Shown here: piece after piece, positions 21,001 to 37,391 of the stretch
Layout: every line of letters starts with the position of its first letter
How positions within the stretch are numbered: position 1 is the stretch's first letter
IMG/VR virus record: IMGVR_UViG_3300017967_000043
Span: 1 to 47,385 of that record
DNA: 47,385 bases
Reading direction: 5' to 3' (one strand)
From: a virus
Made by a program: the position numbers and the translations under genes
Notes under the pieces: model-generated
The model's input: only the letters and a program-made list of their open reading frames with translations
Told to the model about the DNA's origin: nothing
Databases searched by the model: none

Positions 21001-24000
21001 CTGGTCTCTTTGATATTGTTATTGGGGACATCATTATCGGTCAACAAAGTGGAATCGTTGCTACTGTTACTGGTATTCAGTCCTATAGAGATCCTGTTAC
21101 CAACCAGGCGAATAACCAAGTTATCATCTCCGAAGGTTCTTCGTTCTTTGGTCTGGTATTCAACAGAATCACCAGTATTGACTTCCAGAACGTTGTTCTT
21201 GACAACATTTCACAAACTCAACTGCAAGTTGGTGATCTCAACGACACTACTATTGAATTTAGTGGCAGGTTCCCCAATTCGGAACAGGTTACCAACCTTA
21301 TTCTTGAGTACGACAGCGCAAGTGGTGCTCTTGAAGTTGATGAGCAAATTAGAAACAATATTATCAACTACTCCTCTTTGGTTGGCGATCTTACTGATGG
21401 AGAAACTGTAAGAGTTTATAAACTCGCTTACGAAAACCCTGCAATTGCTGCTGATGGTTTGATTCTGTCTGGAGACATTATTCGTACTGAAAATGCTACT
21501 GCTCAAGTCATCGGTACTAACTACGCTCGTGGTTATCTGTATCTGGGTAAGGTTGCTCGTCGTGCTACTGATCTTCATGTCCCTGTCGCTGGAAATGGTG
21601 CTATCGCATCCACTCTGCAGAAAAAGTTTGGTAACGCATCTCTCTATTTGAATGGAACTGCATATGTAACCATTCCTAGCAATGCTGAGTTTGCATTTGG
21701 ATCTAACAATTTTGCAATTGAATCGTGGATCTATGCTAACTCTGCATCTTTGACTGGTACTGCTACCCTGTTTGACTTCCGCGAAGCAGCAACTGAAGTT
21801 GCAATCCGAGTCTATCTTGAGAATGGTCAACTGCGATACAACGTTAATGGATCCGATCTTGCCAATTCTGGTGCAACAGTCGTTGCTCAGGATACCTGGA
21901 CTAGCATTGCAGTAACTAGAAACAACAACACTGTCAGACTCTTTATTGATGGTGCTCAAGTTGGTTCCGCAAGTGATTCTCAAACGCACGTCACCAAACC
22001 CATTAAGATTGGTGCTGACTGGCAGAATAGCAATGCCTTCACTGGTTATATGGACGAAGTTCGTATCTCCAGTGATGAGCGTTACACTGCAGCATACACT
22101 CCTGCAACTGGTATGTTCCAAGGTGATGCAGAAACACTATTACTTCTCCACTTTGATGGAGAGAACCTTTCTACTGACTTCCAAGATTGGTCTGGTGTAC
22201 CTACTTGGAATGAGGGTGACGAGTTCATTAACGGTGAAATTGGATTTAGATTCTACGATGCTTCTAATGAAATTCTGACCAACCGCTCTTTGATTGCGAA
22301 CGAAGCAGTCTATCAAATGGATCGTCAGTATCCTTATCTGCATATTCCTCTCGGTGATGAAAACATTGCAATCACTTATGGTGGCAATTTCTATGATGCA
22401 ATCATTGATAATCTTGATTTCATTGCTGAGGAAGCACAGGAAAGAGCAGGTGATCCTCAAGCTTCTGTTGCTGAGATTAAGAATGTTATCCGTAACGTTG
22501 GATACAACCTTAAGTTTGGCGAAAATAGCAAGGTCTGGGATGTTGCAGAACTCTTTGGGATTGGCACTTTGACCAATGCTACCGTTGCTGCTCTAAATGA
22601 AGCGAGAGATATTACTCAAGATGTAATTAACAATACTACGGTAACCGTTAGCGGTACTCATGGTTTGACTCAAGTTAGCACGGTAGATGTTCCATTCTTG
22701 TTTGGTGGTTATACCGATGCAGTGAACAGAATCACCGCTTTGGTTAAGATTGTAACCGATACAATTCAAGATCCTAGTGGTGCCAATACCGTTACTTATT
22801 CTAGTTCTGTTTCTGCAGTAGAAAGAGTAAGTCCTGGTTATGCCAAGTGTCTTAGAGATGCTGGTTACTGGATTGATGCCATCGCCAAAGACCTTAGAAA
22901 TACTGGCAACAGTTCTTCCTGGGATACTGCAGCATATTATGTTGATCGTAGCGATGTAAACAACGTTACTATCAATCACCTGATTGGTGAGGAAGCAGAG
23001 ACCGTCTGGGCAATTGATAAAGTACGCGACTTCGCCATTGAGGTTATGCGCGGTAACCTGATCAATATTACTGGTCCTCATGGATTTACCCAAGTTGTAG
23101 ATGAAACTATTACTCGCGACCCTGCAGGAACTCCTTACTGTGTTGACGTTGCAAGCGCCATCACCACTTATGCCGACATCATTTCGGATACTATTGAACA
23201 GGCAAATCTCCCAACTCCCGTTGACCACCTCGGTACTGTAACCAGAACCGCTCCATCCTCTTTGTATGGCGCTGGTGTTGTTGACTCGGTTCTCGTCAGT
23301 GAGTTTACTTGTGATGAAGAATTCCCTGATGATGACCTGTTTGTTGCCACTCAAATTTGGCCAGACACTCAAAATAGATTCAAAGATGCTGCAACTCTGA
23401 TCCGTGCTAACGCTGGTATTATTGTTGATGAAGCAGCAGGCGACATGCTCGCTCTCTATCCTTTCCTCAACCAGGATATGCCTAGAAACGCTGGCGGCGC
23501 TTCTACTCTTGGCACCTTGCGTTGTAAGACTGACTTGACTTTGATCCTTGATACCATTGCCTCCGACATTGAGCATGGTGGAACTGGTAACGTTGTTACT
23601 GGATTTAAGTTCTACATCGGTCCTGACGGTGAAATTCAGCACATCCGCTTACAACTTCTGCAGTCTCTCTATGCACATGAACGCCTTGCATACTATGCAA
23701 AAGCAGCAATTGATGGTACTCTGGTCACTCAATATTCGGATCGTGTTGTAATTCCTCCTGCAGGTATCACCAATGATCCTGGTGGATGTCAGAATGTCAA
23801 AGATGCTATTGACAGCTTGGTTGATCTTATCAATGAGAGTCTTGCTCCTACTGGAGATAGATTCCGTGATGCTGGAAACTTGCTCATCTTTAACAAGGAC
23901 TATATTGCTGAAGAAGCAGTTGGTTTGATGCAGGAAGAGTTTAGTTATGTGAATGCTGGTGGTATTACAATCAAGACCTTCAACTATGTTGGTGGTGATA

Positions 24001-27000
24001 TTGATGGTAAGGCAAAGTGTGTCAGAGACATGACTGAAATTATCAAGTCTCTTATCTCAGACCTTCTGGTTGGTGGCAACTACAGCACTGTTGAAGCTGC
24101 CAAATTGTATCTCAGCCCAGCCAATCAAGTTAAATTTGTTGAGGATCAAATTGCTCCTACTGTAGAGGCAATTAAGAACGTTGGATTCCTCGCTAAGAAG
24201 GCGATCAACAACCTACTTCAAAATCTTGGAGATGGCCAGAATGGTCCCGAATACTACGTTCCAAGATTTACCCTGAGAAATGCATATACTGATGACACTA
24301 TCACTGATAGTGGAGATGATGGTGATGTTGGCAATTATGGCACTAGGGATTGTGTCAATGTAAGAGAAGCAATTGATACTCTCATTGAGACTCTTATTGA
24401 GACTCTTGCTCCTGGTGGTATTCAGGCTCGTTCTGCCGATCAGCAAATCAGATTTGGTAGAGAATATCTGGATTCTGAACTGAAGCAAATCGTAATCGGT
24501 GACTGGGGTGATGTGTGGAAGGATCCTGCTCTAACTTGGAGTTCGGGTACTAACTATGAACTTGGTGCATATATTCAATATAATGGCAATGTTTATGTTG
24601 CCGAAAGTGCCCTGGGTCCCGCACTGCCTGGTCCAGGTGGAACTATTGTCTACAAGGCAGGTAGCGAACCTCCTGTTCACACCTCGGGTATTGTTGATGA
24701 TGCAACTGTTCTTGAAGCAGATCCTATTGAAAACCGAAATCTAATTACTTCTGATGACGTTGATCCTGTTGGCATCAATTGGGAGTTTGTTGAATTCCAG
24801 AAGGATTACTTCCTGGATCAAGTAATTGCTGACGCTCTGTATGATAGCATCACTACTCCTGATATAGTTTCTGCTCCATATCAAGTTGAAAATGCAACTT
24901 ACGATCCTGCAACTGGCGATTTTGTTATCACGATCAAAGATCACGGTCTGACTCCTGGTAGTGATACTATTAGACTCTCCGACAATTCGTTCACATTCAC
25001 CTGTTCTTCGGATAATTACAACACTTACCTGACCCATCCTCGTCCCCACGACCCTGCATATAGACAAGATCTTGCGATCACTTCGGCCACTACCGATACT
25101 ATTACTGTTAACGTTGGTGCATCTCCCTTTGTCTACTACACTCCTACAAATGCAACTTACGATGGAACTACTGGTGAATTTGTAATTACAATTGGTGCCC
25201 ACGACATCACTGAGGGAACTGGTATTCAACTTGCCGATAACTCGTTCACCTTCACTTGCGCTCAGGATAGCAACGCAACACAGCACACCTATCCTCGTCC
25301 TGGAAGCGATCCTTTCGCTGGAACTAATATTATTGTTACCGAAGTTGGTTATACCAATTACGATGTTGAGAACGCCACTTATGATCCCACCACTGGAATA
25401 TCGGTGTTGACTGTTATCGGTCACCCGTTCGGTTCTGGTGATAAGATTCGTCTTCTGGATGAGAGTCTGGTATTCACTTGTAGTTTGGATAATAATGAAA
25501 CCGAACATGCATACCCCAGACCTTCCGATCCTGCAAGTCAGCAATGGTTGACTGTTAGCAATGTCAATGGCGATCAGTTTGAAATTAACGTTGGCACTTC
25601 TACCGATACTTCTACTCACCAATTTGTTTATGCTCTCACTAATGCTTTGCAGCATCAAGATGGCACCATTACAATGAATGTTGGTGGATATGATAATGCG
25701 ACTGCACATACTTTTGTAAGTGCTTCTGCTAATGCCGTTATTACTGGTGGTGCATACACCCATCGCTTCATCTCTGCAACTGCAACTGCTGTTCAGGGAC
25801 CTGTTCGCCAGAATGGATTTAGCAACGTTGCTGCTATTGACAGTCTGCGTTTGCTGCCTTCTCCAGTAACAGGAGAACTTGCCAATGTTAATATCTTCCC
25901 ATCTCCCGAAAGGGAGCAGTTCGGTGCTGGTGGATGGACTATCACTGGTGGTACTATTACTGCCGATGCGACTACGGGTCCTGATGGTACTCTGACCGCA
26001 GACAAGTATATTCCTGGTAACAATACTTCTTTCAAAGTTGTGGAAAGAACTTACACGCTTCCTTCCTATGACACCTTTGATGATAGCACTATCACCTTTG
26101 ATGATACCAATAATACCTTTGACGAGGGCGACTCCAATTCCTTCCAAGAGTACACTTGGTCTTGTTTTGTTAAGCAAGGTGAATATTACAAGTTCCGTCA
26201 CAGCATTGCCTGGAGTGCTAACGATAAGGCAGAATTCACTTGGGACGCTGTAACTGGTGCTGTTGGTCCTTCGCTGTTTATCTCTGGTAACGTTGTTGTT
26301 GGTGATGGACTCACCTCTAGCAGCACCTTTGCCGAGTCTGAAGCTAAGAAGGGTATCTCCTGGGGTGTCAAACCCTATGGTTTCGGTTGGTTCCGTCCTT
26401 TCATCACAATTCGCGTTCCCTTCGGTATCTCACAACTTGAGATCAAAGAATACATGCTGAATAACACTGGTACTCTTTCGGGTACTGGTTCTGAAGGTAA
26501 TGGCACCAACGGTTCTTACATCTGGGGTGCCGAACTCAATAAGGGCGGACTTGGAATTTACACTGCCAACAGCGGCGAGAAATTCTATGTTTCCGATGAA
26601 TATAATATTAAGAAGTTTATTATTGATAGAGCTGAGGACTTCATTGAGGCACAACTCAATGGCACTCATGTCAATCCTGCTCCTGAGTCTGGCGCGGTTC
26701 CTTACTATGATCCGCAACTGAATGATCGTTATGATGTTGCTGAGGTTATGCTCAGACTCACTAATACATTTGATCTGTATAGAGAGCAACTAAAAGATAC
26801 CAACTATTATGTTGATCTTGATACTGTAGTTGGTATTACAATTCCCGCTCAGACTTATGTTGCTGGCGGATCTAGAAATATTCCTGTTCCTATCAGTAAG
26901 GAACTGGTAGGATCCGACTTCTTCTACGGTCTGTCTTCGGATTCCTATGGTGAGGTTGAAAAGATTACCTTTAGTGAGGCAACTATTGCTAAGATCTATC

Positions 27001-29339
27001 AGAGATTTAAGTTTGATCCAGATCAAGTCGTTCTCGGCACTGCATCTAATGACTTCAAACTTGGTGAGTCTATTCAGACTACTGGAAATGCAGCGAATAC
27101 TGGAACCATCTACGGATTCCATGAGGATGAAAACTTCCGTTATATGGATGTTATCATTACCGCTGGTAGTTTTGCAATTAACGATTCTATCACGGGCGCT
27201 CTTAACGGCACCCTAATCCAAGGTGGCATCAACTTGGTGGGTTCCTTCACAAACCTCACTAACGCTGGTGCTGATCCCAACAGAGTCCAAGGTTCCTATA
27301 CTGTCACGGCAACTGGTGGAACTGGCAACCCTCAAGCGACGTTTGATGTATCGGTTGATGATACTGGTGCAGCAAACGTAACTATCGCTACGGGTGGTGC
27401 TGGATATACCATCGGTGACGTTCTTACCCTGCAAGATGTAAACCTGGGCAATGGTGGTGGTGCTAACATCACTCTGGAAGTCCAGACTCTCACCAATGCA
27501 GGCATTCAGGAGATCACTAACAGACTGCAAGTCATTGACCTCCAGAATACAGTTGGATTTACTAGTGGGTATTCCTTCAAAGGATATACTTCTGGGGAAA
27601 CTGCAATCACCTCTAACTTCATTGAGAACTCTGGTGCAGTTACAAATAACCTTGGCGGTAAACTAACCATTGATACCGAAAGCATCAGTGGATCTTTTGA
27701 AACTACTTCTGTCATCTATCCGTTCCAGACTAGAGTCTTCCTGGATATGATTACGCACCCGTTGATCCCAGTATCTCTGGATGTTGGTGACAAGGTTGTT
27801 GCAACTGGATATACTCGCTTGGGTGTCTCTATAGGATCTCAATATGCCGATCAAGACTTTGCTGTTGGGCAATTTGTTTACCAGGCAAACAATAATCTCT
27901 CTCAGATTTTTGAAGGTGCATACGGTTATGTGACTGGATGGGATAGTGATAATAACTACCTGTACGTCTCTCCGATTGGCAATTCTGTATTCCAGAACGG
28001 TCAGTTCATTGCACAGTATCCTATCGGCAACACGTCTCAACCCACCATCTACGCTACGGTATCCACTACAATTACTAGCAATACCACTGCGTACGGTACG
28101 GTCACCCGTATTGATGCTCTGGGTCTTTCTAAGAGAGTTTACTTGGGTGATGTTGTTGGCACCTTTACGGGCAATGACACTGTTATTTCTGACGCTGGAT
28201 TCAAGGCAGCATCTTATGAAAAGGTAGATGTTGTTGGTAGAACTAATCGCTGGTTCGTTGGTTTTGATGGAGTACAAACTTCCTTCAAACTTACCGAACA
28301 AAACGGTACGCCATACTTCCCCGATCCTGAAGGTCATATGATGATCTTTGTTAATGGTATTCTGCAACCTCCTGGCGCAGGCGGTTCCTATAGTGCCTTC
28401 TCGGATGTTATCCAGTTCAACGAAGCACCTACGCTTGGTTCTTCCTTCACTGGTTTCTATCTTGGTAAGATGCGTCAGTTGGATGATATCAGCTTTGAGT
28501 TTGACTCCTTGCGTTCGTCCTTCAACCTCAAGCGTTCTGGTACATTCTACTCGCTCGCGCTCACGGAAGGTGTTCAGTCTACCGAGTCCATCATCGCAGA
28601 TAATAACATCATTATCTCGCTCAATGGTGTTATTCAGGAACCTGGAATTGGTTTTGAACTGGTTGGTTCTCGTGTCGTCTTCAAGGAAGTTCCTCGTGTT
28701 GGATCAACGTTCGTTGGTTTCGCATACATCGGTTCTGACGCTGACGTTACGAGATCGGTTGTCGTACCCCCGATTGAGGCAGGAGACCTCCTTGACATCC
28801 AAGGTGAGACGGTAGACAGAGAAGTCGCTGTTATTGAATCTGCAAATACTCTGGTTACATTTGAATACATCGGTTCCGTATTTGGACGCGATGCTGAAGC
28901 AACTGCAAACCTGCTGAAAGGTAGAGTTGACTCGGTACAGGTCACCAATCCTGGTTCTGGATACACTGGTCGCCCGATTGTTCGTGTTGACTCTTCCTCG
29001 GGTCTTGATGCTAACGTCAAGGCGCTGGTTGGCGTCTCGCGTGTAGATACCACCAACTCTGGTAGTGGTTATGCTTACCCCGAAATTGATGTTCTTACGG
29101 TCGTTGCTGATGATTATACCCCACCAAATCTCGCAGATTATGGTCAGGAAGCTCTGTACACCGTAGAGGTTGTTGATGAGGATCTGATTAGTGTAACGCC
29201 TGAGAATCTGGATGACTTCAACAGTGGAGACATTCTTGGTCAGGGCACTTCAGATCCAACTGAGACTCCCACAGAACTCGCAGACTTCTCCACGAATGGA
29301 ACTTACAATGTCGCTAACATCTGGACGAGTGGTTCCTAA
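9087..29339 (+). CDS. Giant gp7-like baseplate/virion protein (6750 aa)
   Basis: One uninterrupted 20.25 kb frame follows gp6, the place of T4 gene 7 (1032 residues). The N-terminal NIYNQLPDFIKADYPAFEKF region and the SKGTRGSIAYLFKILYGEDV block near residue 700 match the gp7-like wedge protein of marine T4-like phages. The rest is a mosaic, by residue: GSGY-type beta repeats 292-632 and 1132-1368; YHYH domain 1372-1562; propeller-like segment about 1975-2355; LamG-like domain about 2362-2625; more GSGY repeats 3132-3368; second LamG-like domain 4165-4358; Cys-containing helical repeats 4438-5138; a carbohydrate-binding-like module 5148-5202; a triplicated 74-86 residue repeat from about 5269; a galactose-binding-like region 5605-5795; and a C-terminal fibre-type part. 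It should form the wedge core plus a large outward extension. No ribosome site precedes ATG 9087. Equivalence to gp7 is less certain than its structural role. Confidence 0.85.
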   Translation: MSHPNKVSQNIYNQLPDFIKADYPAFEKFLEYYYKSQEKTGQPQNIINEFQKLLNIDEYDFKLIRSESELLEPVTATDDIITVESVDDFLEKNGSILLNEEIIYYERANKSPEISLTEGISYEEYREKWIELQSPYMDFNGVVRTFPLLSQDNPIAPPSEDHIVIRLFGKYLIPGVDYTIQGTSVVFTDPPRSPNPSDSIEETAVFYLKGFLQDPIQEVDNISSLFNSSRTEFPLEVSGVNYNPVLQVYLNVVINDNLLVPYKDFSIINRDGQYFIKMKVAPPSQARSYIGSVEAPISSFGSGATAIAQINNNGNLTGIKVKSGGTNYRLQYPPAVEVATTTGGGGASAYSLVNGIKTLSLLGGGAGYSDLNPPIVNIEPPTAAGGIPAAAKALVTNGQVTGLELLNSGSNYTFTPRVTFLDPGGCVFSNPTIDVNGSIEPESIEIVEVGKGYTVPPTIYVDPPTGADPLQAEIVAQIGTDGTVTGFTVTNRGRGYTTSPRIAVIDPGAAQILDVTVDSTGRVVEIELLSGGSGYVDIPSIYIVDNRKDPSGAFIGGSGATAVASIFNGQITDINITNFGTGYDPANPPKVVIQRPPSANASAEVGFGEVTGFRVVESGSDYTKAQFIGCSRGVSGIVGYDTDGNAIYEQKTSPTNHNIGTAVKCLDGVFVEKMLSKFTEQYLPDIPKIDLNKININTVIKTIRTFYSSKGTRGSIAYLFKILYGEDVSVSYPKEQIVKPSAASWQVDTILRCVVESGNPQNLKDGFLQQFQDQVDPNIGSASALIENFISIKTSELEIFELVLSEETIQGTFTIPYKTKLAEGISTTDSVLTVDSTIGWPERNGEILVGTELIRYKEKSLNQFIECTRSVNNIVEDWDAATEVTSNFYAYVNYGTDQEVVVKVVGIIKAENTTLTDDGTYYLPGDKLTVSKLGASENVPLLNTWNYNVKKLVSVDRIEFGGVNNQTATVYCNNPHGLLVGDQVTIYGANPILFNGTYFVQSRESTTVFKYQLVQPAAVVPQGNILISVDLNRGKSDVESINNSIGIYTTNIQNSFFNDDYVYVAASGIPNYKVGPFVGQALIPGNQRKLLRFPRVSQTISTKDEIQPGPIGAWVNGVSIWSYKSSNKKIFGEVTKINIIKQGDSYDAASPPSLTISNGGGTGATGSVIIDGSLTAINITATGSGYTSPPLVSIVGGGGSGASATAVVTNGQVSRVLINSGGTGYTSRPEITIVGGGGTGATALAEVRGPIKEVVINTGGTKYTSQPDITLSSGEGAQAQAIVQNGRIISIAVINAGSGYTTPPIVEIYGNGFGAIATANIDTDGENAGRVTSISINNRGINYEAGTTVIILRSVGSDAQFTAEVQSWTYNLAPITALDDAQGSVFSGYNNQYGGEYAHFTNPKRLRYVLGDNLLEDSNGSLTESTSNISHSPIIGWAFDGNPIYGPYGYTDPTNQSSNIRRLEPSYRLKPALVLNAITNPTPVREGGPLLADDPAGTYIEDYEYTFGEGDLDRYNGRFGKTPEFPEGVYAYFTCIDATEQGNPVFPYIIGPNFNSSVDKWNLASTAVQQNIPTGVIRYRDPYENVDIDVERTPNATADLLTTEDGLELTFDPIWEDSDGDNVIDTNYQIDDDNDITTPEVRLTTRPDDRVFRLTYDQSNITMEVGQTYAIPAYTTTNELYAPSTDPINVQVLFNGITNTTVLVRVVSSEKFAPAFDGTYDQYIGLNFVYTDDDGNTTSANIVDVEFIGFRATYEITDELVVEELQDVGSLLEENKLELFDYFPKVRFDSKVDIEVESITKFEDASVNGFVVENPGDNYQVNDRLIFDDIDSEGYGISAVIRTIQGKTISTYDFELINDVPHGVITTDVPHDLVSGDKIQVSYTPEISTENRQFKVKVVNGIETIKVTQIGTGYTDDVPISVEIDGDGQHAEVNPVINVSNGTVSSFDIVKSGNGFSENPRLIISHPQEFKKAEYFINGTENLNDTVINAVYTSDVTKDIYVCGNTIDQFDNRVGFVAKYSTSGDIVWYKTARSEQPSGQDTFCNFTALTVDEDSNTLDVYVTGTTKPNSLNVNYNPDIVLMKFNQNTSGTTCSIQYQKEMAGISGSTRLDEVSAISKVGENKWCIGGHTNTNSQYPFDAYIIIFNENLGVQQKRKISTASDSEKVVDIKYNADSGKFYVLLEIAPTTTSAVKSFAIAHCEAQQFSVIIDKVINFNTTSYNLWGARFDIDEFGDFLVSGTAYSGSNPIGVFVGKVTTENEVRWGKRITPAGTFRNLKVIGGNVDVFGNYNLAINYELNESTSGSEAFRKQSEIIKFRYDGTVISTNKVSLGRNIVGFEINAISADSSGDPVLTGQGYRNEVVGLFDFESTDETEPVDTTGNLTNRNLIGDYYTGSNISSGAPSGQGSTRGLRINAYDGAAWSDTHFEINPENNTGIYGYADTYDPNGDWTIEGWWSVTETTVLQDSRLAGLGSTHHILFGIGHGSEPGVTLTLNRSNKRLELYASSTLQRTATPIASANDQIVNDDGYVHCAVTKFGNLFTIYVDGTSVGSGSLPSLTIPSTAKIYVGNAPNWTGNTSGYTVDYAGSFDVDGLRISDHVRTISVPSTTAEYNDYYKTYHYVPDAALVIKTDKNIDSTRQGTFIGTNTNYHFTTASYTYPTTINQPITVSSVTLASEGLQVLDYNDVNSSLVIDSVTLTSNTDVWSSRTATIPAKGGRKVKAETTTYGKFYIKVTNTTEVDNVLRLSLNQTFNVKKNSQIQQYNNAGQLVANAEVIDVDANSLYIAQYTGTKSAWEGYVGTGEIKTTGGENNSIGSYIFANEPFTTTQGTFIFDIPSGLDARFKVYGQEDFTVRIDDTAPAGSPYIIGSVITPDEDQVTYNADRSQLTISGLTAVTEITLITNLDKILQLTAVNATDRIFYKTARAHKLQSGDNLFISGNSADEFNGSFAVDEVISTREFTTRLRATAVGDPDAASSIDIFVKHPVIQMFYNHKYQFMLGDPSLQGYFMSFSKDNLFKLEYSFNSIQRVGTPGVQQGGDPEPYVQLSVNSEVTNISYYFDPSRTGDDSPVNPGTYLDVIPTPYTGEFEVKFLAGATITSGANIFKFPLLNEPESVATASRVGYTTSSVSAVGPIGAIRLINGGGFYKKLPIVSNIVSNRRIERVAINEPGTEYAVGEYTGVSISGDGEGGKVNITVQDGTDEDGNTIPGQITEVIVTDPGKNYTTATIDIESIPGILGPSLAGSGAELEVVIPPNGSGASIFVKANQIGKIKKLKNNNFGFDYTHDYTLRPEITFPVNVQLTSTSILDSITVTDPGSGYATPPAVIIEGGGGSGAIAEATIRNGRIDQIEVKDPGSGYSSQPSVSLKSSFNYVVNLDLNLLQFSFPHGIVNGSAVTLQAVDAGDGEEPALPISSFGRLSAATTYYAIAGAANSLEDDQLKLALTPDNAAIGDFLSYTNDGQGRQVLLTDSFGGAAEANVITGRFLAGEYIYQGDTLDQATASGYVSENDGWQEGPRILKIVDYTGDFSAGQQITGTISKASGTIDNLSIAKGVLEVGAITTTPGRFIDDVGKPSEIIQRIQDSYFYQDFSYSVRTPVAISDWRDILTTNVHPAGFKVFGELGLIESGTIENKTTAFELTKSVNLAESAIVPNLQNYTLVEPVYTDFDNTEVRFRQKDLTSSEQILTSTVQKINDISQLFDGERISFPLTVQNLDDEGNTVTEPVIANANQLIITLNGIVQSPGEAFEVQGSDIVFSDPPQPPANVQYATVTLQFRDIKRMQLSNISGIFPLIGGRIRGIVSDVNATVVAVGTTTIDFYYDNNTDAFQLTETIFSSATGFQATLDSITDVNRQNLFNFKEDIQNLRGDQATVEQVNLEGNNGQPIANIPGGMSATQGAFDVDNVADVELNKTYQVDSERMVVTDISGNTLTVQRAADGTTAVGHQTNSVLYGTEIEVGNTLVLSKTAGTYQSTPGLFDIVIGDIIIGQQSGIVATVTGIQSYRDPVTNQANNQVIISEGSSFFGLVFNRITSIDFQNVVLDNISQTQLQVGDLNDTTIEFSGRFPNSEQVTNLILEYDSASGALEVDEQIRNNIINYSSLVGDLTDGETVRVYKLAYENPAIAADGLILSGDIIRTENATAQVIGTNYARGYLYLGKVARRATDLHVPVAGNGAIASTLQKKFGNASLYLNGTAYVTIPSNAEFAFGSNNFAIESWIYANSASLTGTATLFDFREAATEVAIRVYLENGQLRYNVNGSDLANSGATVVAQDTWTSIAVTRNNNTVRLFIDGAQVGSASDSQTHVTKPIKIGADWQNSNAFTGYMDEVRISSDERYTAAYTPATGMFQGDAETLLLLHFDGENLSTDFQDWSGVPTWNEGDEFINGEIGFRFYDASNEILTNRSLIANEAVYQMDRQYPYLHIPLGDENIAITYGGNFYDAIIDNLDFIAEEAQERAGDPQASVAEIKNVIRNVGYNLKFGENSKVWDVAELFGIGTLTNATVAALNEARDITQDVINNTTVTVSGTHGLTQVSTVDVPFLFGGYTDAVNRITALVKIVTDTIQDPSGANTVTYSSSVSAVERVSPGYAKCLRDAGYWIDAIAKDLRNTGNSSSWDTAAYYVDRSDVNNVTINHLIGEEAETVWAIDKVRDFAIEVMRGNLINITGPHGFTQVVDETITRDPAGTPYCVDVASAITTYADIISDTIEQANLPTPVDHLGTVTRTAPSSLYGAGVVDSVLVSEFTCDEEFPDDDLFVATQIWPDTQNRFKDAATLIRANAGIIVDEAAGDMLALYPFLNQDMPRNAGGASTLGTLRCKTDLTLILDTIASDIEHGGTGNVVTGFKFYIGPDGEIQHIRLQLLQSLYAHERLAYYAKAAIDGTLVTQYSDRVVIPPAGITNDPGGCQNVKDAIDSLVDLINESLAPTGDRFRDAGNLLIFNKDYIAEEAVGLMQEEFSYVNAGGITIKTFNYVGGDIDGKAKCVRDMTEIIKSLISDLLVGGNYSTVEAAKLYLSPANQVKFVEDQIAPTVEAIKNVGFLAKKAINNLLQNLGDGQNGPEYYVPRFTLRNAYTDDTITDSGDDGDVGNYGTRDCVNVREAIDTLIETLIETLAPGGIQARSADQQIRFGREYLDSELKQIVIGDWGDVWKDPALTWSSGTNYELGAYIQYNGNVYVAESALGPALPGPGGTIVYKAGSEPPVHTSGIVDDATVLEADPIENRNLITSDDVDPVGINWEFVEFQKDYFLDQVIADALYDSITTPDIVSAPYQVENATYDPATGDFVITIKDHGLTPGSDTIRLSDNSFTFTCSSDNYNTYLTHPRPHDPAYRQDLAITSATTDTITVNVGASPFVYYTPTNATYDGTTGEFVITIGAHDITEGTGIQLADNSFTFTCAQDSNATQHTYPRPGSDPFAGTNIIVTEVGYTNYDVENATYDPTTGISVLTVIGHPFGSGDKIRLLDESLVFTCSLDNNETEHAYPRPSDPASQQWLTVSNVNGDQFEINVGTSTDTSTHQFVYALTNALQHQDGTITMNVGGYDNATAHTFVSASANAVITGGAYTHRFISATATAVQGPVRQNGFSNVAAIDSLRLLPSPVTGELANVNIFPSPEREQFGAGGWTITGGTITADATTGPDGTLTADKYIPGNNTSFKVVERTYTLPSYDTFDDSTITFDDTNNTFDEGDSNSFQEYTWSCFVKQGEYYKFRHSIAWSANDKAEFTWDAVTGAVGPSLFISGNVVVGDGLTSSSTFAESEAKKGISWGVKPYGFGWFRPFITIRVPFGISQLEIKEYMLNNTGTLSGTGSEGNGTNGSYIWGAELNKGGLGIYTANSGEKFYVSDEYNIKKFIIDRAEDFIEAQLNGTHVNPAPESGAVPYYDPQLNDRYDVAEVMLRLTNTFDLYREQLKDTNYYVDLDTVVGITIPAQTYVAGGSRNIPVPISKELVGSDFFYGLSSDSYGEVEKITFSEATIAKIYQRFKFDPDQVVLGTASNDFKLGESIQTTGNAANTGTIYGFHEDENFRYMDVIITAGSFAINDSITGALNGTLIQGGINLVGSFTNLTNAGADPNRVQGSYTVTATGGTGNPQATFDVSVDDTGAANVTIATGGAGYTIGDVLTLQDVNLGNGGGANITLEVQTLTNAGIQEITNRLQVIDLQNTVGFTSGYSFKGYTSGETAITSNFIENSGAVTNNLGGKLTIDTESISGSFETTSVIYPFQTRVFLDMITHPLIPVSLDVGDKVVATGYTRLGVSIGSQYADQDFAVGQFVYQANNNLSQIFEGAYGYVTGWDSDNNYLYVSPIGNSVFQNGQFIAQYPIGNTSQPTIYATVSTTITSNTTAYGTVTRIDALGLSKRVYLGDVVGTFTGNDTVISDAGFKAASYEKVDVVGRTNRWFVGFDGVQTSFKLTEQNGTPYFPDPEGHMMIFVNGILQPPGAGGSYSAFSDVIQFNEAPTLGSSFTGFYLGKMRQLDDISFEFDSLRSSFNLKRSGTFYSLALTEGVQSTESIIADNNIIISLNGVIQEPGIGFELVGSRVVFKEVPRVGSTFVGFAYIGSDADVTRSVVVPPIEAGDLLDIQGETVDREVAVIESANTLVTFEYIGSVFGRDAEATANLLKGRVDSVQVTNPGSGYTGRPIVRVDSSSGLDANVKALVGVSRVDTTNSGSGYAYPEIDVLTVVADDYTPPNLADYGQEALYTVEVVDEDLISVTPENLDDFNSGDILGQGTSDPTETPTELADFSTNGTYNVANIWTSGS
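11085..11325 (+). other. gp7-like conserved block of the giant protein
   Basis: Residues about 667-746 (FVEKMLSKFTEQYLPDIPKI through the SKGTRGSIAYLF segment) look like the most conserved helical core of this protein family. Beta-repeat insertions flank it on both sides, so the ancestral wedge protein seems to have been expanded around this core. Confidence 0.5.
13200..13770 (+). other. YHYH-type domain within the giant protein
   Basis: Residues about 1372-1562 carry IIGWAFDGNPIYGPYGY, then EDYEYTFGEGDLDRYNGRF and a TPEFPEGVYAYF strand, the conserved second half of the YHYH domain family. The YHYH motif itself is not kept here. The same segments recur in the genes at 29364 and 32355. Confidence 0.7.
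15010..16150 (+). other. Propeller-like segment of the giant protein
   Basis: Residues about 1975-2355 show repeated blade-like strands (DIYVCGNTIDQFDN, GFVAKYSTSGDIVWYKTA, NTLDVYVTGTTK, WCIGGHTNT). The pattern of strand, G-D-V/I-x-W and strand resembles beta-propeller blades of the SBBP type. Blade number cannot be fixed by eye. Confidence 0.45.
16170..16960 (+). other. First LamG/concanavalin-like domain of the giant protein
   Basis: Residues about 2362-2625 include WTIEGWWSVTETT, GYVHCAVTKFGNLFTIYVDG and a closing DGLRISDHVRT strand, the classic order of a LamG-like jelly roll. In phage tails such domains usually bind sugars. Confidence 0.65.
21580..22160 (+). other. Second LamG/concanavalin-like domain of the giant protein
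   Basis: Residues about 4165-4358 contain ASLYLNGTAYVTIPSNAEF, FAIESWIYANSAS, WTSIAVTRNNNTVRLFIDG and YMDEVRISSDERYTAAYTP. This is a textbook LamG-like arrangement and is closer to consensus than the first copy. Confidence 0.75.
22400..24500 (+). repeat. Cys-containing helical tandem repeats in the giant protein
   Basis: Residues about 4438-5138 hold several copies of a mainly helical unit: a D-A-x-x-L-I helix ending E-E-A or D-E-A, a linker, then a C-x-R-D or C-x-T-D helix with D-L or D-I, a GGN/GGT turn and an A-A-x-x-Y helix. Examples are KCLRDAGYWIDAIAKDL, RCKTDLTLILDTIASDI and KCVRDMTEIIKSLISDL. Repeats of this type are frequent in marine phage giant structural proteins. Their role is unknown. 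Confidence 0.65.
24891..25615 (+). repeat. Triplicated beta repeat (74-86 aa) in the giant protein
   Basis: Three tandem copies begin with NATYD at 24891, 25149 and 25371, spaced 258 and 222 bases. Each has a G-x-x-V-x-T strand, a DNSFTFTC or DESLVFTC strand with a conserved cysteine, and an H-x-x-PRP turn (HPRP, YPRP). The copies diverge in sequence, so the duplication is not recent. Confidence 0.75.
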
Positions 29340-29363: not shown

Positions 29364-31130
29364 ATGCCACAGTCAAATACAACAGCAGTATTGGAAGATG
29401 GGGTGCTGACGGTTACTACCGATCAGCGTCCCGAACCAGCTCTTTTTGGAGATCCGTTGGGTTCTGGGAATTTTCCCAATAATCCAAATACGGTATCTGC
29501 TCAGGAGGGAGAGTTCGTATTTACTCTGAGGGGAGGAACTAATACTTCTAATCCTCAGGCAACAACTCTCGGTGCTCAGGGTATTGCTCTAAATGGAGTT
29601 GTATTATTCAATCCTTCCGCTGGTCCTGGTCCTCTGCCAGGTCGGACTGTTGCACCTGCAAATGGATTCAATTGGAATGCAGTTTTTAATGAGTCTGTTT
29701 ACGGTGTAGATGCATGTGGTGGACACGCTGAGCAAAATGGTGAATATCATTATCACTCTGGTTCCTTTTTGGTAAACTGCTGGGGCAATTCTTTGATCCA
29801 GTCAAATGAATATTTTAGTTCCTCTAATTTTGAGGGGAACTACTTTAGACATCCTGACGGACACTCAAAAATTATAGGATTCTGTTTTGATGGATACCCC
29901 ATCTATGGTCCATTTGGATATAGTGCGGGTGAAGATAATACTAGTGGAACCAAACGTGTTAGATCCTCATATAGACTACTTACAAGTCCTCGTGATGGCA
30001 GAACTTTCAGCTACAGTCAATATGCTGCTGGCAGTTTTGTGCAAGACTATGAATATGTGAACGGTCTTGGTGACCTGGATGAATATAATGGTAGATATTG
30101 TGTGACCCCAGAGTATCCTGACGGCACATTTGCATACTTCATCACTCTTGACGAGGAAAACGAACCAGTATACCCATATATTTTTGGTCCACAAACGAAA
30201 CAACAACGTCAATGGCCTCCCGAAGATTATGAGGGTGATGATCACAGTGGTCCTGTTGGTCCTCTTAGTGCTGAAGACATTCTGAGAATCACTAAGCAGT
30301 GGAGTCAAGCGTCATTTAATTATGACTCTGTTGTAAGTATGCCTGCGACTCCGCCGCCTGGATCTCCTGCACTTCCATCTAGACTTCCCGTCACTATCCT
30401 ACTTCATGGATCTGGTGGCAATGGAAATGGATTGATTAGTGTGTGGAGAGACAGACTTCCTGGTGATATATTGGTCGCACCAACTGGATATCTTAACAAA
30501 TGGAATATCATTGATGAAAGTAAAGCACCAGATATTGAGTATCTGACCCAATTGATAAGAAATCTCAGACAGTATAGTAACGTTGCTCCAGATAAATTTA
30601 GAATACTTGGTATTTCTAATGGTGGCGCTCTGGCACTGAGAGCATTGTTAGAACTTCCTGATGCTGGATTGGAAACAGTTGTCTGTGTTGTGTCAAGTCT
30701 CCATAATCAACAGTATAGAGACGGTGCATTTTACCGACCAAGTGATCATGAAAATACGGGATCTGCCAATGAAAATTCAGGTTATACCGTAGAATTTACT
30801 CCTCCTACTGGTAGAAAGTGTTTGTTAGTACAAAATACTAACGATTCTGTTATTCCTTATGCTGGAGGTAGTAGTGCTGGTGTTCCAAATACCGTATTTT
30901 ATGCCGCTCAGTTCTCTGCCTGGGCACTAGCAAAATCTCAGGGATACACTGGGAATCAACTAGGAGAATTGCAGGGAGAGTACATGGATGATTATTCAAA
31001 CGTGTATCTCTACAAATATCTTGCTAATGCTGTTGTTCATGCTAGAAGTGATGCTGGACATGATACCAACGAAGGTCTGAACGTTTTGATACGTCAGTAC
31101 ATTGAGAGTGGTGGTCTCAGCGCAGGTTGA
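29364..31130 (+). CDS. YHYH domain fused to alpha/beta hydrolase (588 aa)
   Basis: Residues 1-100 form a short beta N-terminus. Residues about 100-275 are a YHYH domain with the literal motif at 128-131 and the later segments GFCFDGYPIYGPFGY and GDLDEYNGRY. From about 340 an alpha/beta hydrolase begins: oxyanion strand ILLHGSGGNGNG (His 348), nucleophile elbow G-I-S-N-G with Ser 418, acid Asp 494 in NTNDSVIPYAGG, and His 566 in DAGHDTN. Order and spacing fit a complete Ser-Asp-His triad of the PHB-depolymerase/LpqC-like esterase type. No signal peptide is present. Placed between baseplate genes, it is likely a virion protein that cleaves an ester on the cell surface or in the medium. Substrate is unknown. 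Confidence 0.8.
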   Translation: MPQSNTTAVLEDGVLTVTTDQRPEPALFGDPLGSGNFPNNPNTVSAQEGEFVFTLRGGTNTSNPQATTLGAQGIALNGVVLFNPSAGPGPLPGRTVAPANGFNWNAVFNESVYGVDACGGHAEQNGEYHYHSGSFLVNCWGNSLIQSNEYFSSSNFEGNYFRHPDGHSKIIGFCFDGYPIYGPFGYSAGEDNTSGTKRVRSSYRLLTSPRDGRTFSYSQYAAGSFVQDYEYVNGLGDLDEYNGRYCVTPEYPDGTFAYFITLDEENEPVYPYIFGPQTKQQRQWPPEDYEGDDHSGPVGPLSAEDILRITKQWSQASFNYDSVVSMPATPPPGSPALPSRLPVTILLHGSGGNGNGLISVWRDRLPGDILVAPTGYLNKWNIIDESKAPDIEYLTQLIRNLRQYSNVAPDKFRILGISNGGALALRALLELPDAGLETVVCVVSSLHNQQYRDGAFYRPSDHENTGSANENSGYTVEFTPPTGRKCLLVQNTNDSVIPYAGGSSAGVPNTVFYAAQFSAWALAKSQGYTGNQLGELQGEYMDDYSNVYLYKYLANAVVHARSDAGHDTNEGLNVLIRQYIESGGLSAG

Positions 31131-31166: not shown

Positions 31167-32348
31167 ATGGCAAAAGAAATTCTGCAACTAGGTAATGCTG
31201 CCAACGACGGAACGGGTGACTCCCTCCGAGCGGGTGGCACCAAAGTCAATGCAAACTTCACCGAGTTGTATGATGCCCTCGGCGGAACTGCTGGCGCTCA
31301 AAATATTCTAGTTAGTACCGCATCCCCAAATGTAGGCGATGCACTGACCTGGAATGGAAGTGCTTTCACTCCTGCCAGACCAACAAATAAAAACCTCTTA
31401 GAGGAAAACCTCAACGTTAACGGATTTAACATTGTTTCCTCTAATAATGGTAATATTCTTCTTCAGTCTGATGGTACTGGAGACATCATTTTTAGAAATG
31501 GATCTAACGGCACCGATACAATCATTGATGGTGCTGACGGATTCTTCAAGTGGAATGCACCATATACGAGTGCATCCGATCTTCCAGTATTCAGCACTTA
31601 CGTTGGCATGTTTGCCTATGTTGCTGATGTAAGTAAAGCATACTACTCAAACGGAACTGCCTGGGTCAACCTGATTGACACCGAAACTGGCAGAATCCAA
31701 GATCTTTCAAACGTTCAAGATACGAATTACACTGACGGTCAAGTTCCTACCTGGAATGCTGTCAACGGTCGCTTTGAACCTGGCACTGGTGGTGGTGCTG
31801 GTGGTGGTAATATCTTCGCTACCTTCAATGCTGACACAGGTTCTACCACCGCTCTGGGCGCTACTGACACGCTGACTGTTACTGGTGGAACTGACATCTC
31901 AACCACGATTAGTGGAGATACCCTTACCATTGCCTACACTGGTGGTGGAGGATTTTCATTTACTGGAACTCCTGCTGAGGGTGATACTCTTTATTATGAT
32001 GGGAACAACTGGGTTCCCGTTAGTTCGCCTGCGATGAAATGGACTCTTGGTACAGATGGAACTAACTCTCACTATACTTTCAGTGGTCCTGGTTTCAGTG
32101 GTGCTATCAATGATCCTCCTCTGTATCTGCATAGGGGTCATACTTACATCTTTAATAATTCTGCACTATACACCGTCCACCCATTTGAAATTCGTCAGTC
32201 TTCTGGTGGTTCTGCCTATACCGCTGGTGTCACGAATGATGGGGCAGGAAGAACTACTTTCGTAGTTCCCATGGATGCACCTGCTACTCTTTATTATCAA
32301 TGCACTGTTCATGGTGCAATGGGCAATCAGATCGTAATCGTATCGTAA
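31167..32348 (+). CDS. Fibre-type protein with C-terminal cupredoxin-like domain (393 aa)
   Basis: The N-terminus, GNAANDGTGDSLRAGGTKVN then NFTELYDALGG, is the attachment segment seen in many marine phage fibre proteins. The middle contains short beta repeats and a LSNVQDTNYTDGQVPTWN motif common in fibres, followed by a Gly-rich linker. From about residue 310 the sequence is cupredoxin-like: LYLHRGHTYIFNNSA, His 338 in VHPFEIR, and the C-terminal ligand loop Cys 379, His 382, Met 385 in YYQCTVHGAMGN. The Cys-x2-His-x2-Met spacing is that of amicyanin-type type-1 copper sites. If copper is bound, the virion would carry a redox or metal-sequestering centre. Overall fold is inferred from these motifs. 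Confidence 0.75.
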   Translation: MAKEILQLGNAANDGTGDSLRAGGTKVNANFTELYDALGGTAGAQNILVSTASPNVGDALTWNGSAFTPARPTNKNLLEENLNVNGFNIVSSNNGNILLQSDGTGDIIFRNGSNGTDTIIDGADGFFKWNAPYTSASDLPVFSTYVGMFAYVADVSKAYYSNGTAWVNLIDTETGRIQDLSNVQDTNYTDGQVPTWNAVNGRFEPGTGGGAGGGNIFATFNADTGSTTALGATDTLTVTGGTDISTTISGDTLTIAYTGGGGFSFTGTPAEGDTLYYDGNNWVPVSSPAMKWTLGTDGTNSHYTFSGPGFSGAINDPPLYLHRGHTYIFNNSALYTVHPFEIRQSSGGSAYTAGVTNDGAGRTTFVVPMDAPATLYYQCTVHGAMGNQIVIVS

Positions 32349-32354
32349 TAATAA

Positions 32355-35300
32355 ATGGCAAGGACAGTACCTGGAAGCGGAGCAGTAATCAAACCCCTGT
32401 TCAATAAGGAGTTTGGTGTATCTAGTGTTGTCGTTTTGGAGAATGGATCTGGATACGATCCTGCAGATCCTCCTCAACTAGAGGTAGACAACTGCGGCAC
32501 ACCCGAAATACCTGCACTCTTATACCCAATCATTGAGAGTGGTAAGATTACTCACGTCAGAGTCTTGGTCTCTGGTAAGGGATATGACCCCTTAAGAATC
32601 AACATTACGGCAAATCAGGATGACAATAAAGTCATCAATACTTTTGATGTAAGATCTATTCTTACTAGTGTATCAGTTTCCATTACAACGGGTGCATTTG
32701 ATGGGGATCGCTTGATCCTGAGAACTAACAATATTCCCGACCCTGCTATAACTGGTTCATTTCCCAGTGCATTTAACAATAACAACATTTATGCCTCAAA
32801 TTACAATCATGTGATTGTATATCGTGGTGGTAAAGATATTCCCAAATTAAATAATGATGAGCGTAGGTCAGAACAAGTTGGTATCTTAGCCAATGGTTCT
32901 CCTCTGTTTTCACCTGATGCTGGCACTGATGGGGTTCCTCCAGTTGGATTCCATTACAATGCTGTAAAAACTAATTTTTATGATCATGATGCCTATCATG
33001 GGTATCCAACTAATGAAAATCTTTATGTGTTTCAAGATTCTGAGATAATTGATTCTTTTTCTCAGGGTCTTTTTAATATTAAATCTTATTTCTCAACTTC
33101 CAATTTTAGTGGAGATAAGTCTCGTCATACTAATGGTCACAGTAAAGTCCTTGGAATATCTTATGATGGATATCCAATCTACGGTCCTTATGGTTACACA
33201 TCTCCTCTTGATGACCAGTCTGCGGTAAAGAGAATTGAGACTGGATATCGGTTAAGAACTGGTGTTGAGATTGATGGTAATCGTGCCACGATCAATACAC
33301 CAGCAGCCGCAACCTACACAATTACTGTGCAGGAAGTAGATGGAGTCAACAAATATATTGTTAATGGTGGTTCATTTACAAACGCAGTTGCTCCTGTACT
33401 TCTGCTGAATCGTGGAGACACGATCACATTCAATCAAGATGATGCTTCCAATCAACAGCATCCTATCTTACTCAGCGATGTAATCGGAGATAGTGCTGGA
33501 CAGGCGTGGCACGCTACTGGCAGAACTCCACAGGACAGAGACGATCTATATGAAAGAGGAGTAACATATTTCCTAAATGGAAGTGCAGTATCATATGCAG
33601 ATTACATTTCTGGATTTGGAGCAGCAACTACTCGTTCTCTGCAAATTGTAATTCCTGATTATTCACCTGCAAACTTTAGTTATTTTTGCTACTATCACCC
33701 GTTAATGGGAAATAAGTCCAACAACCTTGGACACACTGCAGGAACTTTCATTGAAGATTATATCTATGATTCCAATGTTGGCGATCTTGACGAATATAAC
33801 GGTAGGTATTGTGTAACTCCAGAGTATCCCAATGGAACTTACGCATACTTCCTAACTACAGATGCATCTGGAGATCCAGAATATCCGTATTGTATCGGAG
33901 AATATTATTATAGTTCGGTAGTTAGATATGGTGAACAACCACCTGCAGCAAATCTTGAGGTCCCTCAAGGTGCTAGAGCAGAAGTAATTCTTAGCGAATC
34001 CAATCCTGGAGAGGTTGAGTACGTTAAGATGATTGCTGGTGGTGATGGATATTTTGGAACTGCCCGAGCAGATATTCTCGGTGGTGAAGGATCTGGTGCA
34101 ACAGCAGTCCCAGTAACTCAGTCAATCAGTGGTTTGTCCCTGGTTTCCCCTGGTAGATCTTACATCACTCCACCTACACTATTCTTCCAAGGTGGTGGTG
34201 GACAAGGTGCTGAAGGTGTTGCTAACATTGACACTTCAGGCATTCTTACCGACATTTCCATTGCAAATCCTGGTAGATTCTATCAGGAACCACCATATAT
34301 TTTGATCACTGGTGGCGGTGGTGTTGGCGCAAAGGCAACGGCTAGAATTTCTCAAGGCGAAGTTGTCGGTATTGATGTTACTGATCCTGGTAGAGGATAC
34401 ACTTCTCCACCAAATATCATCTTCACAAAACTGGTAAACGTAAAGAGAAAAGTTAGGAATCGTCAGTCATTTAATTCGGCATCTTTTTACATCACTGCAC
34501 TTGAGAAGTCTCTCAACACCAGTGATGATGAAGTAATTGTACAATCAACTGATGCATTCCCTGGTTCTGGTACGTTTATTCTGGGAAAAGAGATTATTGA
34601 ATACACCAGTAAGAACGCGAAAAAGTTCTTAGGGTGTACTCGTGGAACTAACTTTAGATATGACCAGCGCGTTATTGTTGATGGCATCCAGAACGTTAAT
34701 GGCGTGTCTACTTACGAATTCAATGTAGGAGACAGACTTGTTCGTAGAATTGAAAATGCATCCAACAAAATTGCAAAAGTATATGATTGGAATCCCAATA
34801 CTAGAGAACTGTTTGTAATCTTTGAGATTGATGAACTTGCTTTCATTGATGCTGGTATTCCCTCTACTTCAGATAGAACGGTCGCATTTGACGCTGGAAC
34901 TCAATCATCTTCAAACGCACTTCAATTGCCACATGTTATTATTGATTCTATCGGTAATGACATTGTAGTTTATCAGTTGACTCTAACCGACAAAGCATTT
35001 GAAGATGATGATGAGTTGGATGGCGCTGGTGATGGAATTCCAGATGTTGTAAATACTGGAACTGATTTTGAAAATCAGATCAATCTTGATGGTGGAATTC
35101 CTTCATCCAAATATGGTATTGAAGAGACTCAAGGTGGACAAAATACTACTCTGTTCTCTATCGGTGATCAGGTCAAGGATGCATCCATTCCATTTAAGTT
35201 TGCAACTATTGAATCTGCAGGTGCTTTGGGTGATGGCGTTGAACATACTTCCAGACTCAAATTGAAGTTTTTGAGTACGGATAACAACGCAACTAATTTT

Positions 35301-35858: not shown

Positions 35859-37391
35859 ATGGCAGCACTACTTACTGACCAGTTCAGGATCTTTACGGCA
35901 CAGAAATTCATCAAATCTCTAGAGGGTCCAAACCCTTTGGATAGTGATGTGGTTGCTGGCGACGATAGAGATCGTCTGTATATCTTTATTGGTCGCCCCC
36001 AGGAATGGGACAACGAAAACTCTCCGCCGCAAGCGGTTGACTCGTTTGACGAGTTCTCTGATGCTTACGATGACATGATGTCTCTGAAGCGTGTTCTTGC
36101 TGCCGACACGATTCAGGTCGTCCGTCGTATTGACTGGATTCCCCCCGAACAAACCACTGGTGGTTTGGGTTTCACTTATGACATGTATCGTCATGACTAT
36201 TCTCCCACGAATACGGCGTCTTCTGGTGCGACTAAACTCTACGATTCAGATTTCTACGTCGTCAATTCAAACTATCAAGTATACAAGTGCATCTATAACG
36301 GCACTTCTCCTGCTGACCCTAACGGTAAGCCTTCTACTATTGAACCCACTGGTACTTCTACATCCATTATTACCACTTCCGATGGTTATAGGTGGAAGTA
36401 TATGTATACTATTCCTGTTGCACAGGTTCTGAAGTTCTTCTCTGCTGACTACATGCCCGTATTCAGTGATGCTTCGGTATCTTCTAACGCTGTTGCTGGT
36501 GAGATTGATAGTGTAGTTATTACTTCCTCGGGTTCTGGTTATAATAATGGTACATATGATAACGTTGCAATCAATGGCGACGGTGCTGGTGGTCGCGTAT
36601 CTATTGTCGTTGACGGTGGTCGTGTTATCTCCGCAACGGTGACCTCTGGTGGTACTGGATACTCCTTCGGTAAAGTTACCGTTGATGCTGTATCTGGTAT
36701 CGGTACTGGTGCAGGTGGACAAATTGATGTCATCATTCCTCCTCCTGGTGGTCATGGCAAAGATCCCGTTGTAGAAATGGGTGCATATCGTGTCATGATT
36801 AACGCCAAACTTTCCTACGATGAAGGTGCTGGCGACTTCCCGATTGATAACGACTATCGTCGTATTGGTCTGGTAACTAACCCGCTCAAGTTTGGTACTT
36901 CCGAACTTCTTTCAGATTTGACCCTATCTGCCTCTAAGGCAGTTATTTTCCCAACAACTTTCCAAGGTAACTTTATCCCTGACGAGACTATCACCCAAAC
37001 TCGTATTATCGGTGGTCAGTCCGTTACCGCAACTGGTAAAGTTGTTTCATGGAATCCGACAACTAAGGTTCTGAAATATTATCAAAACCGTGTTGACGGT
37101 ATCTTCCCTGCTGTTACTGGTTCTTTGAATGAATTTGATGGTTCAAATGCCATTCAGGGTGCTTCCTCTGGTGCATCTGGTGACCCAGATGTAAACTTCC
37201 CTGCAGTTCCCAATACTTCTTCCAGAACGATCAATAACACTGAGTATGATCTGGGTATGAAGTTTACTGCTGGGTATGCCAAATCCGAGATTGAATCTAA
37301 TAGTGGCAATGTTATCTACATAGATAATAGAAGGACCATTAGTCGTGCAAACGACCAGATTGAAGACATTAAGATCGTTATTGAATTCTAA
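35859..37391 (+). CDS. 8: Baseplate wedge subunit gp8
   Basis: The N-terminus MAALLTDQFRIFTAQKFIKS, the RLYIFIGRPQEWDNENSPPQ segment and the VVRRIDWIPP and YDMYRHDYSP segments are typical of cyanophage gp8, which joins gp7, gp10 and gp53 in the wedge. At 510 residues it is longer than T4 gp8 (334). Part of the extra length is a pair of GSGY-type beta repeats at about 214-294, the same module found in the giant protein. The conserved C-terminal strands (NVIYIDNRRTISRANDQIED) close the protein. The start is ATG 35859, downstream of GAGG and a late-like promoter. Confidence 0.87.
   Translation: MAALLTDQFRIFTAQKFIKSLEGPNPLDSDVVAGDDRDRLYIFIGRPQEWDNENSPPQAVDSFDEFSDAYDDMMSLKRVLAADTIQVVRRIDWIPPEQTTGGLGFTYDMYRHDYSPTNTASSGATKLYDSDFYVVNSNYQVYKCIYNGTSPADPNGKPSTIEPTGTSTSIITTSDGYRWKYMYTIPVAQVLKFFSADYMPVFSDASVSSNAVAGEIDSVVITSSGSGYNNGTYDNVAINGDGAGGRVSIVVDGGRVISATVTSGGTGYSFGKVTVDAVSGIGTGAGGQIDVIIPPPGGHGKDPVVEMGAYRVMINAKLSYDEGAGDFPIDNDYRRIGLVTNPLKFGTSELLSDLTLSASKAVIFPTTFQGNFIPDETITQTRIIGGQSVTATGKVVSWNPTTKVLKYYQNRVDGIFPAVTGSLNEFDGSNAIQGASSGASGDPDVNFPAVPNTSSRTINNTEYDLGMKFTAGYAKSEIESNSGNVIYIDNRRTISRANDQIEDIKIVIEF

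Follow-up and report, generated by a model that had tools for sequence, protein, structure and literature searches.

A candidate carbohydrate esterase joined to a YHYH domain within the baseplate cluster of marine T4-like phages

To our knowledge, the way in which marine cyanophages breach the surface of Synechococcus and Prochlorococcus is poorly known, and most of the giant proteins in their baseplate clusters are without an assigned function. What might an apparent serine hydrolase fused to a YHYH domain be doing among such genes? The ORF in question lies in a virus record analyzed over its full 47,385 nt (the 47-kb window), the right-hand 18 kb of which shares ~77% identity with Synechococcus phage ACG-2014d, so the source is probably an uncultured T4-like cyanophage of the Kyanoviridae. 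A first-pass annotation had reported an HGSGG motif followed by Ser418 (in GISNG), Asp494, and His566, together with a YHYH domain, and all of these residues were recovered at the positions given (Table 1).

Table 1. Features of the YHYH-esterase ORF and of the neighboring structural genes (positions in the window).
Feature	Position	Strand	Details
Giant structural protein, 6,750 aa, upstream	9087..29339	+	S-SM1 T4-GC969 orthologue; own YHYH core
YHYH module of the giant, aa ~1391-1555	13257..13751
YHYH-esterase ORF	29364..31130	+	ATG start, stop, 588 aa; full-length PHROG 2576 match, E 0
YHYH domain (PF14240), aa 51-264	29514..30155	+	E 1.5e-42; 146.2 bits vs gathering cut-off 25
Alpha/beta-hydrolase (esterase) domain, aa 301-588	30264..31127	+	pLDDT ~90; Foldseek to 9j07, E 2.3e-13
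HGSGG oxyanion motif, aa 348-352	30405..30419	+	Directly after predicted strand 341-347
Nucleophile Ser418 in GISNG 416-420	30615..30617	+	Between strand 407-417 and helix 419-430
Acid Asp494 in NTNDSVIPY	30843..30845	+	Loop after strand 485-491
Base His566 in DAGHDTN	31059..31061	+	Between strand 557-562 and helix 570-581
gp9-like baseplate wedge tail fibre connector	31167..32348	+	PF07880, phrog_677
Baseplate wedge subunit, 1152 aa	32355..35813	+	phrog_708 / T4-GC399; insertion-split YHYH domain
YHYH module of the wedge subunit	32685..33353 plus 33708..33902
gp8 baseplate wedge	35859..37391	+	PF09215, phrog_438
VrlC-like structural protein	37407..44828	+	T4-GC400 orthologue

Genomic setting and the YHYH module

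The genes of the cluster are ordered gp25, gp6, the 6,750-aa giant, the YHYH-esterase ORF, gp9, the phrog_708 wedge subunit, gp8, and the VrlC-like protein; the ORF thus sits between the T4-GC969 orthologue and gp9, inside the baseplate operon, and the earlier placement of the fusion in a baseplate cluster is supported. T4-GC969 is among 41 proteins detected by mass spectrometry in purified S-SM1 virions (PMC3037559). The YHYH-esterase gene is absent from S-SM1, and in both S-SM1 and S-RIM8 gp9 directly follows the giant, so the gene is accessory.

Other features of the cluster include a PAAR-like protein (phrog_281, positions 5720-6220), which opens it, and many GxGATAxAxVxNGxVTxIxIxxxGxGYTxPPxV-type repeats along with LamG-like stretches in the giant. 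The C-terminal ~80 aa of the gp9-like protein contain a cupredoxin-like His...C-x2-H-x2-M arrangement (HPFEIRQ...CTVHGAM) that resembles a type 1 copper site; a cupredoxin-like segment is also present at locus L081 (as an insertion after YHYH) and at the C-terminus of ORF177 of S-MbCM7, with a weak match to PF00127.

YHYH modules occur in three proteins of the structural cluster (Table 1), and that of the ORF, with its YHYH motif at aa 128-131, is 52% identical to the core of the virion-detected GC969. Given that two structural proteins of the cluster, one of them adjoining, carry YHYH as well, the N-terminal module may dock the protein to the baseplate or tail-fiber network; the C-terminal esterase would face out. 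YHYH domains have been predicted to be metal-dependent hydrolases that bind Zn through conserved His and Asp residues (PMC7824862), and the YHYH half could itself be such an enzyme, in a two-enzyme tool in which the esterase is the minor partner. This agrees with RHxDGHSK, Cys174, and Asp176, which are invariant in 21/21 YHYH sequences; however, the name-giving histidines vary (His129 is kept in 15/21 and His131 in 10/21), as does His121 (11/21), so a family-wide metal site would rest mainly on the RHxDGH segment. Furthermore, the YHYH half was left unmodeled in the first AlphaFold run (too little YHYH depth) and was modeled at low to moderate confidence in the second, and we consider this explanation very improbable. 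In a six-frame search of bacterial loci with the esterase, no YHYH was found; matches were confined to phage loci. A "peptidase S8" of S-BM3, considered as a second YHYH-enzyme fusion, was rejected, as Pfam identified YHYH and a weak Ig match in it, and no S8 domain.

Predicted fold, catalytic residues, and selection

Residues ~300-588 of the ORF are predicted by AlphaFold to adopt an alpha/beta-hydrolase fold (the first run used an input alignment of 35 window and locus sequences), a result that was repeated with another alignment. In the model, Ser418, Asp494, His566, and HGSGG all occupy canonical loops of an alpha/beta hydrolase, with the triad in the order Ser-Asp-His and with Asp and His following the last two core strands. 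Further GxSxG strings occur at residues 185, 502, and 584, and only 416-420 forms a strand-turn-helix elbow. The first-pass annotation had held that a fold in which the three residues do not meet would count against an enzyme; at the level of topology, the predicted model is consistent with their meeting. Foldseek against the PDB returned 613 chains at E ≤ 0.001, headed by acetyl xylan esterase B (9j07), with feruloyl esterase 8iy8 and PHB depolymerase 8daj below it and LpqC (3d0k) lower still; these include all three enzymes that had been suggested for comparison. 9j07 was again the top match for a second model, built from a deeper YHYH alignment, and a 23-row profile searched against PDB sequences recovered 9j07_A (E 1.1e-10) with the Ser and Asp motifs aligned. 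PDB sequence searches with the single protein or with four close phage relatives gave no significant match, and neither Pfam nor Foldseek matched the ORF to an SGNH-hydrolase fold. We infer from this predicted fold and triad topology that the C-terminal domain is a CE1-like serine esterase.

No alpha/beta-hydrolase family exceeded its cut-off in the Pfam scan of the ORF, which gave sub-threshold hints only, so that the enzyme would be missed by a Pfam scan alone. The only curated family that matches the esterase domain over its full extent is NF050058 (NCBIfam; extracellular type 1 scl-PHA depolymerase), with a nearly full-domain alignment at E 8e-8 to 1.5e-8. This match, and the PHB depolymerases and LpqC found by Foldseek, would suit a virion-borne esterase with a non-glycan substrate, i.e., a lipid, a lipoprotein, or a storage polyester (PHB/PHA). 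However, the NF050058 score of 32-34 bits, against a curated cut-off of 150, indicates a relative and not a member, acetyl xylan and feruloyl esterases are the top fold and sequence matches, and BD-FAE or sulfatase domains occur as fusion partners in bacterial relatives. PHA granules, moreover, are intracellular and beyond the reach of an adsorbing virion. We therefore regard a non-glycan substrate as unlikely.

All 40 relatives retain the oxyanion His and the Asp and His of the triad, and 38 of them also retain Ser. All four residues are also kept in 82/82 further viral copies, some of them near-identical; SNG was part of one of the two search patterns, which makes the Ser count in this set partly a matter of ascertainment, unlike the counts for Asp and His. 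The dN/dS ratio of the esterase domain (0.06-0.32) indicates purifying selection. Homology to secreted bacterial proteins, conservation, the predicted fold, and this selection together argue that the triad motif is more than a chance occurrence.

Both exceptions among the 40 relatives are Ser to Gly replacements (GVGNG) from a single population of uncultured phages (L025-L029), all members of which have a GGC codon where AGC would read Ser. This is a natural loss of the active site in a baseplate-region protein (L025:4820-9231), and the domain, Asp, and His are retained, so the domain must have another role there, such as binding. By extension, the module might be an esterase-derived, lectin-like glycan-binding part of the virion in which catalysis is no longer the main role, and the Ig-like domain that fills the esterase slot in other phages likewise suggests a receptor-binding position. 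Nevertheless, across the five architectures almost every copy retains Ser, Asp, and His, dN/dS is low, and the Ser to Gly lineage amounts to a single population, all of which leads us to doubt that binding has replaced catalysis in general.

Carriers and relatives in phages and bacteria

A scan of IMG/VR with the 23-row alignment yielded 153 stretches, of which 80 were kept; because many contigs are near-copies, the architecture counts are not independent events. The esterase occurs in at least five phage architectures: YHYH-esterase, esterase-YHYH-Ig, esterase-Ig, subtilase-esterase, and baseplate wedge-esterase. The YHYH-esterase form (~571-590 aa) was found at 13 kept loci, and the esterase-Ig form (~1160 aa, Ser intact) at nine, of which L152 was domain-scanned. 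In a variant of the latter (L025), YHYH is a gene of its own, directly followed by the esterase-like (Ser to Gly)-Ig protein. The order is reversed in the esterase-YHYH-Ig proteins (~1803 aa; L031 and L040), which adjoin gp9-like genes. Subtilase-esterase proteins with a gp9-C-terminus-like end (~970 aa) are present in S-MbCM7 and L189, while L161, L184, and L186 were assigned to this architecture by length and position; a search for further relatives of the subtilase-linked esterase recovered one locus. A further carrier is the baseplate wedge subunit phrog_17744 with a C-terminal esterase, in ~51 contigs counted by length and position; seven representatives were scanned and 7/7 match phrog_17744 (E 1e-76 to 1e-93). 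At its N-terminus, this carrier has matches to wedge subunits of the baseplate in Sinorhizobium phage phiM12 and Caulobacter phage Cr30, and to parts of the giant in the window. In other phages, the YHYH gene has no second domain or has an Ig-like domain in the esterase slot.

ORF177 of S-MbCM7 (ACG-2014h; L113:9856-12780) encodes a subtilase (PF00082, E 1.5e-20), the esterase, and a cupredoxin-like end; the subtilase motifs DVVIVDD, HGIHVTG, and GTSMAAP are all present, and the protein looks like a two-enzyme virion tool.

These carriers bear on whether the enzyme might act inside the infected cell (e.g., in lysis or metabolism), with its place in the baseplate operon due to chance. Such a role would fit the "hypothetical" annotation of the gene in most records, but the esterase is covalently fused to baseplate wedge subunits in the ~51 contigs, it occurs in the proteins that adjoin gp9-like genes, YHYH is common to the ORF and a virion-detected protein, and the S-ShM2 copy is annotated as gp7 baseplate wedge initiator. 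A non-virion enzyme is, in our judgment, quite unlikely.

Among cultured phages, 65 records have the esterase, mostly near-identical ACG-2014d isolates. They represent the genera Greenvirus (S-SSM4), Lowelvirus (ACG-2014d), and Ahtivirus (S-ShM2), in addition to the close relatives S-SSM6b, S-RIM14, and S-SSM2; Sedonavirus (ACG-2014h) carries the esterase in another architecture. The ORF matches PHROG 2576 (phrog_2576, "unknown function") over aa 1-588, and this family occurs in cultured Kyanoviridae (S-SSM4, ACG-2014d, S-ShM2, and S-RIM14). The fusion is therefore not unique to this window, which corrects the earlier remark that no described phage system with it was known. Neither a phage PHB depolymerase nor a baseplate esterase of a cyanophage turned up in the literature searched; the YHYH-esterase is real and conserved, and is undescribed there.

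On the cellular side, proteins with about 34-46% identity to the esterase domain come from marine Bacteroidota, Ignavibacteria, Neomarinimicrobiota, and Opitutia. Most have hydrophobic N-termini and several have T9SS or dockerin domains; fusion partners are the feruloyl/acetylxylan-esterase domain BD-FAE in seven Flavobacteriales copies and a sulfatase in the Opitutia copy. The examined phage copies have no signal-peptide-like N-terminus, whereas bacterial copies have one (N-terminal hydrophobicity maximum of 1.2 in the phage ORF vs. 2.0-3.1 in bacterial relatives), and the Pfam scan of the ORF gave no Por_Secre_tail domain. In one tree, phage copies group (support 100/99) apart from nearly all bacterial ones, the group also taking in the Opitutia copy and a single unassigned bacterium; in a second, the phage group (97/91) again includes that unassigned bacterium. 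A 335-kb contig binned as Candidatus Neomarinimicrobiota (PBPT01000016.1; L040) has a phage-type esterase-YHYH-Ig gene in a layout near that of the viral locus L031; it is counted here among the phage loci with YHYH, and probably represents a large phage or a prophage.

Proposed role and comparison with known systems

On balance, we lean toward the ORF being a virion-borne carbohydrate esterase, a baseplate accessory that acts on a host surface glycan at adsorption. The recurrence of the esterase in many ocean phages, often fused to a baseplate protein, suggests that it probably trims host-surface esters during attachment. A glycan substrate is indicated by the best structural match, by the BD-FAE and sulfatase fusion partners, and by the precedent of virion deacetylases; the enzyme would strip O-acyl, most likely O-acetyl, groups from the surface polysaccharide, and this deacylation, by analogy with G7C gp63.1, could make binding processive or expose a secondary receptor. 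The first-pass annotation had proposed host envelope esters in general: polysaccharide O-acyl esters are supported by the cellular relatives and the best structural match, and lipids or polyesters are the less likely substrates. Its suggestion of an extracellular role is supported in the sense of an extracytoplasmic, virion-carried protein, one that has no signal peptide and whose esterase is elsewhere fused to baseplate wedge subunits. The enzyme module appears to be swappable, as related phages lack it, have an Ig-like domain, or have the esterase on a different carrier.

More broadly, these proteins may or may not, with about equal likelihood, constitute an unrecognized family of baseplate-integrated carbohydrate esterases that has passed among five or more structural carriers (YHYH, baseplate wedge, Ig-rich protein, and subtilase) and is widely used for adsorption by T4-like phages of the ocean; in that evenly weighted reading, the family is shared with secreted, probably polysaccharide-degrading enzymes of marine bacteria and acts from the baseplate instead of from tail spikes. 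An intact esterase family in cultured phages with cultured hosts is a concrete, testable enzyme. From it follows the prediction that the receptor is an O-acylated glycan, PHROG 2576 gains a candidate function, and the exchange of esterase, Ig-like domain, or nothing at one slot amounts to a natural host-range experiment.

Within PHROG 2576, which is itself without an assigned function, the ORF is a full-length member of the same architecture. The homologous esterase of ACG-2014h ORF177 (38% identity, E 1e-54) is likewise in a cyanophage tail cluster, but has an intact-looking subtilase and the cupredoxin-like end in place of YHYH. The secreted marine Bacteroidota relatives (T9SS, dockerin, and BD-FAE fusions) have the same triad at about 34-46% identity; unlike the phage protein, they have a signal peptide and sorting domains, and no YHYH. 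Acetyl xylan esterase B of Aspergillus oryzae (9j07), the best match by both Foldseek and profile, and the CE1, feruloyl esterase, and LpqC group share the fold, the triad order, the G-x-S-N-G elbow, and the N-terminal HGxG strand, although identity is only ~18%, and the phage copies have no secretion signal and form part of baseplate-cluster proteins. The closest functional precedent is the virion deacetylases of the SGNH type: in G7C gp63.1, deacetylation is essential for infection, with a lyase in its place in Alt63 (PMC10743462), and SGNH receptor-binding proteins occur in Klebsiella prophages (PMC13123978). The probable role, a virion esterase that trims acyl groups, and the modular domain swap (as in Alt63) are alike; in contrast, the enzyme described here is an alpha/beta hydrolase and not an SGNH hydrolase, its activity is predicted, and its carrier is a YHYH or baseplate wedge protein of marine T4-like phages instead of a tail spike.
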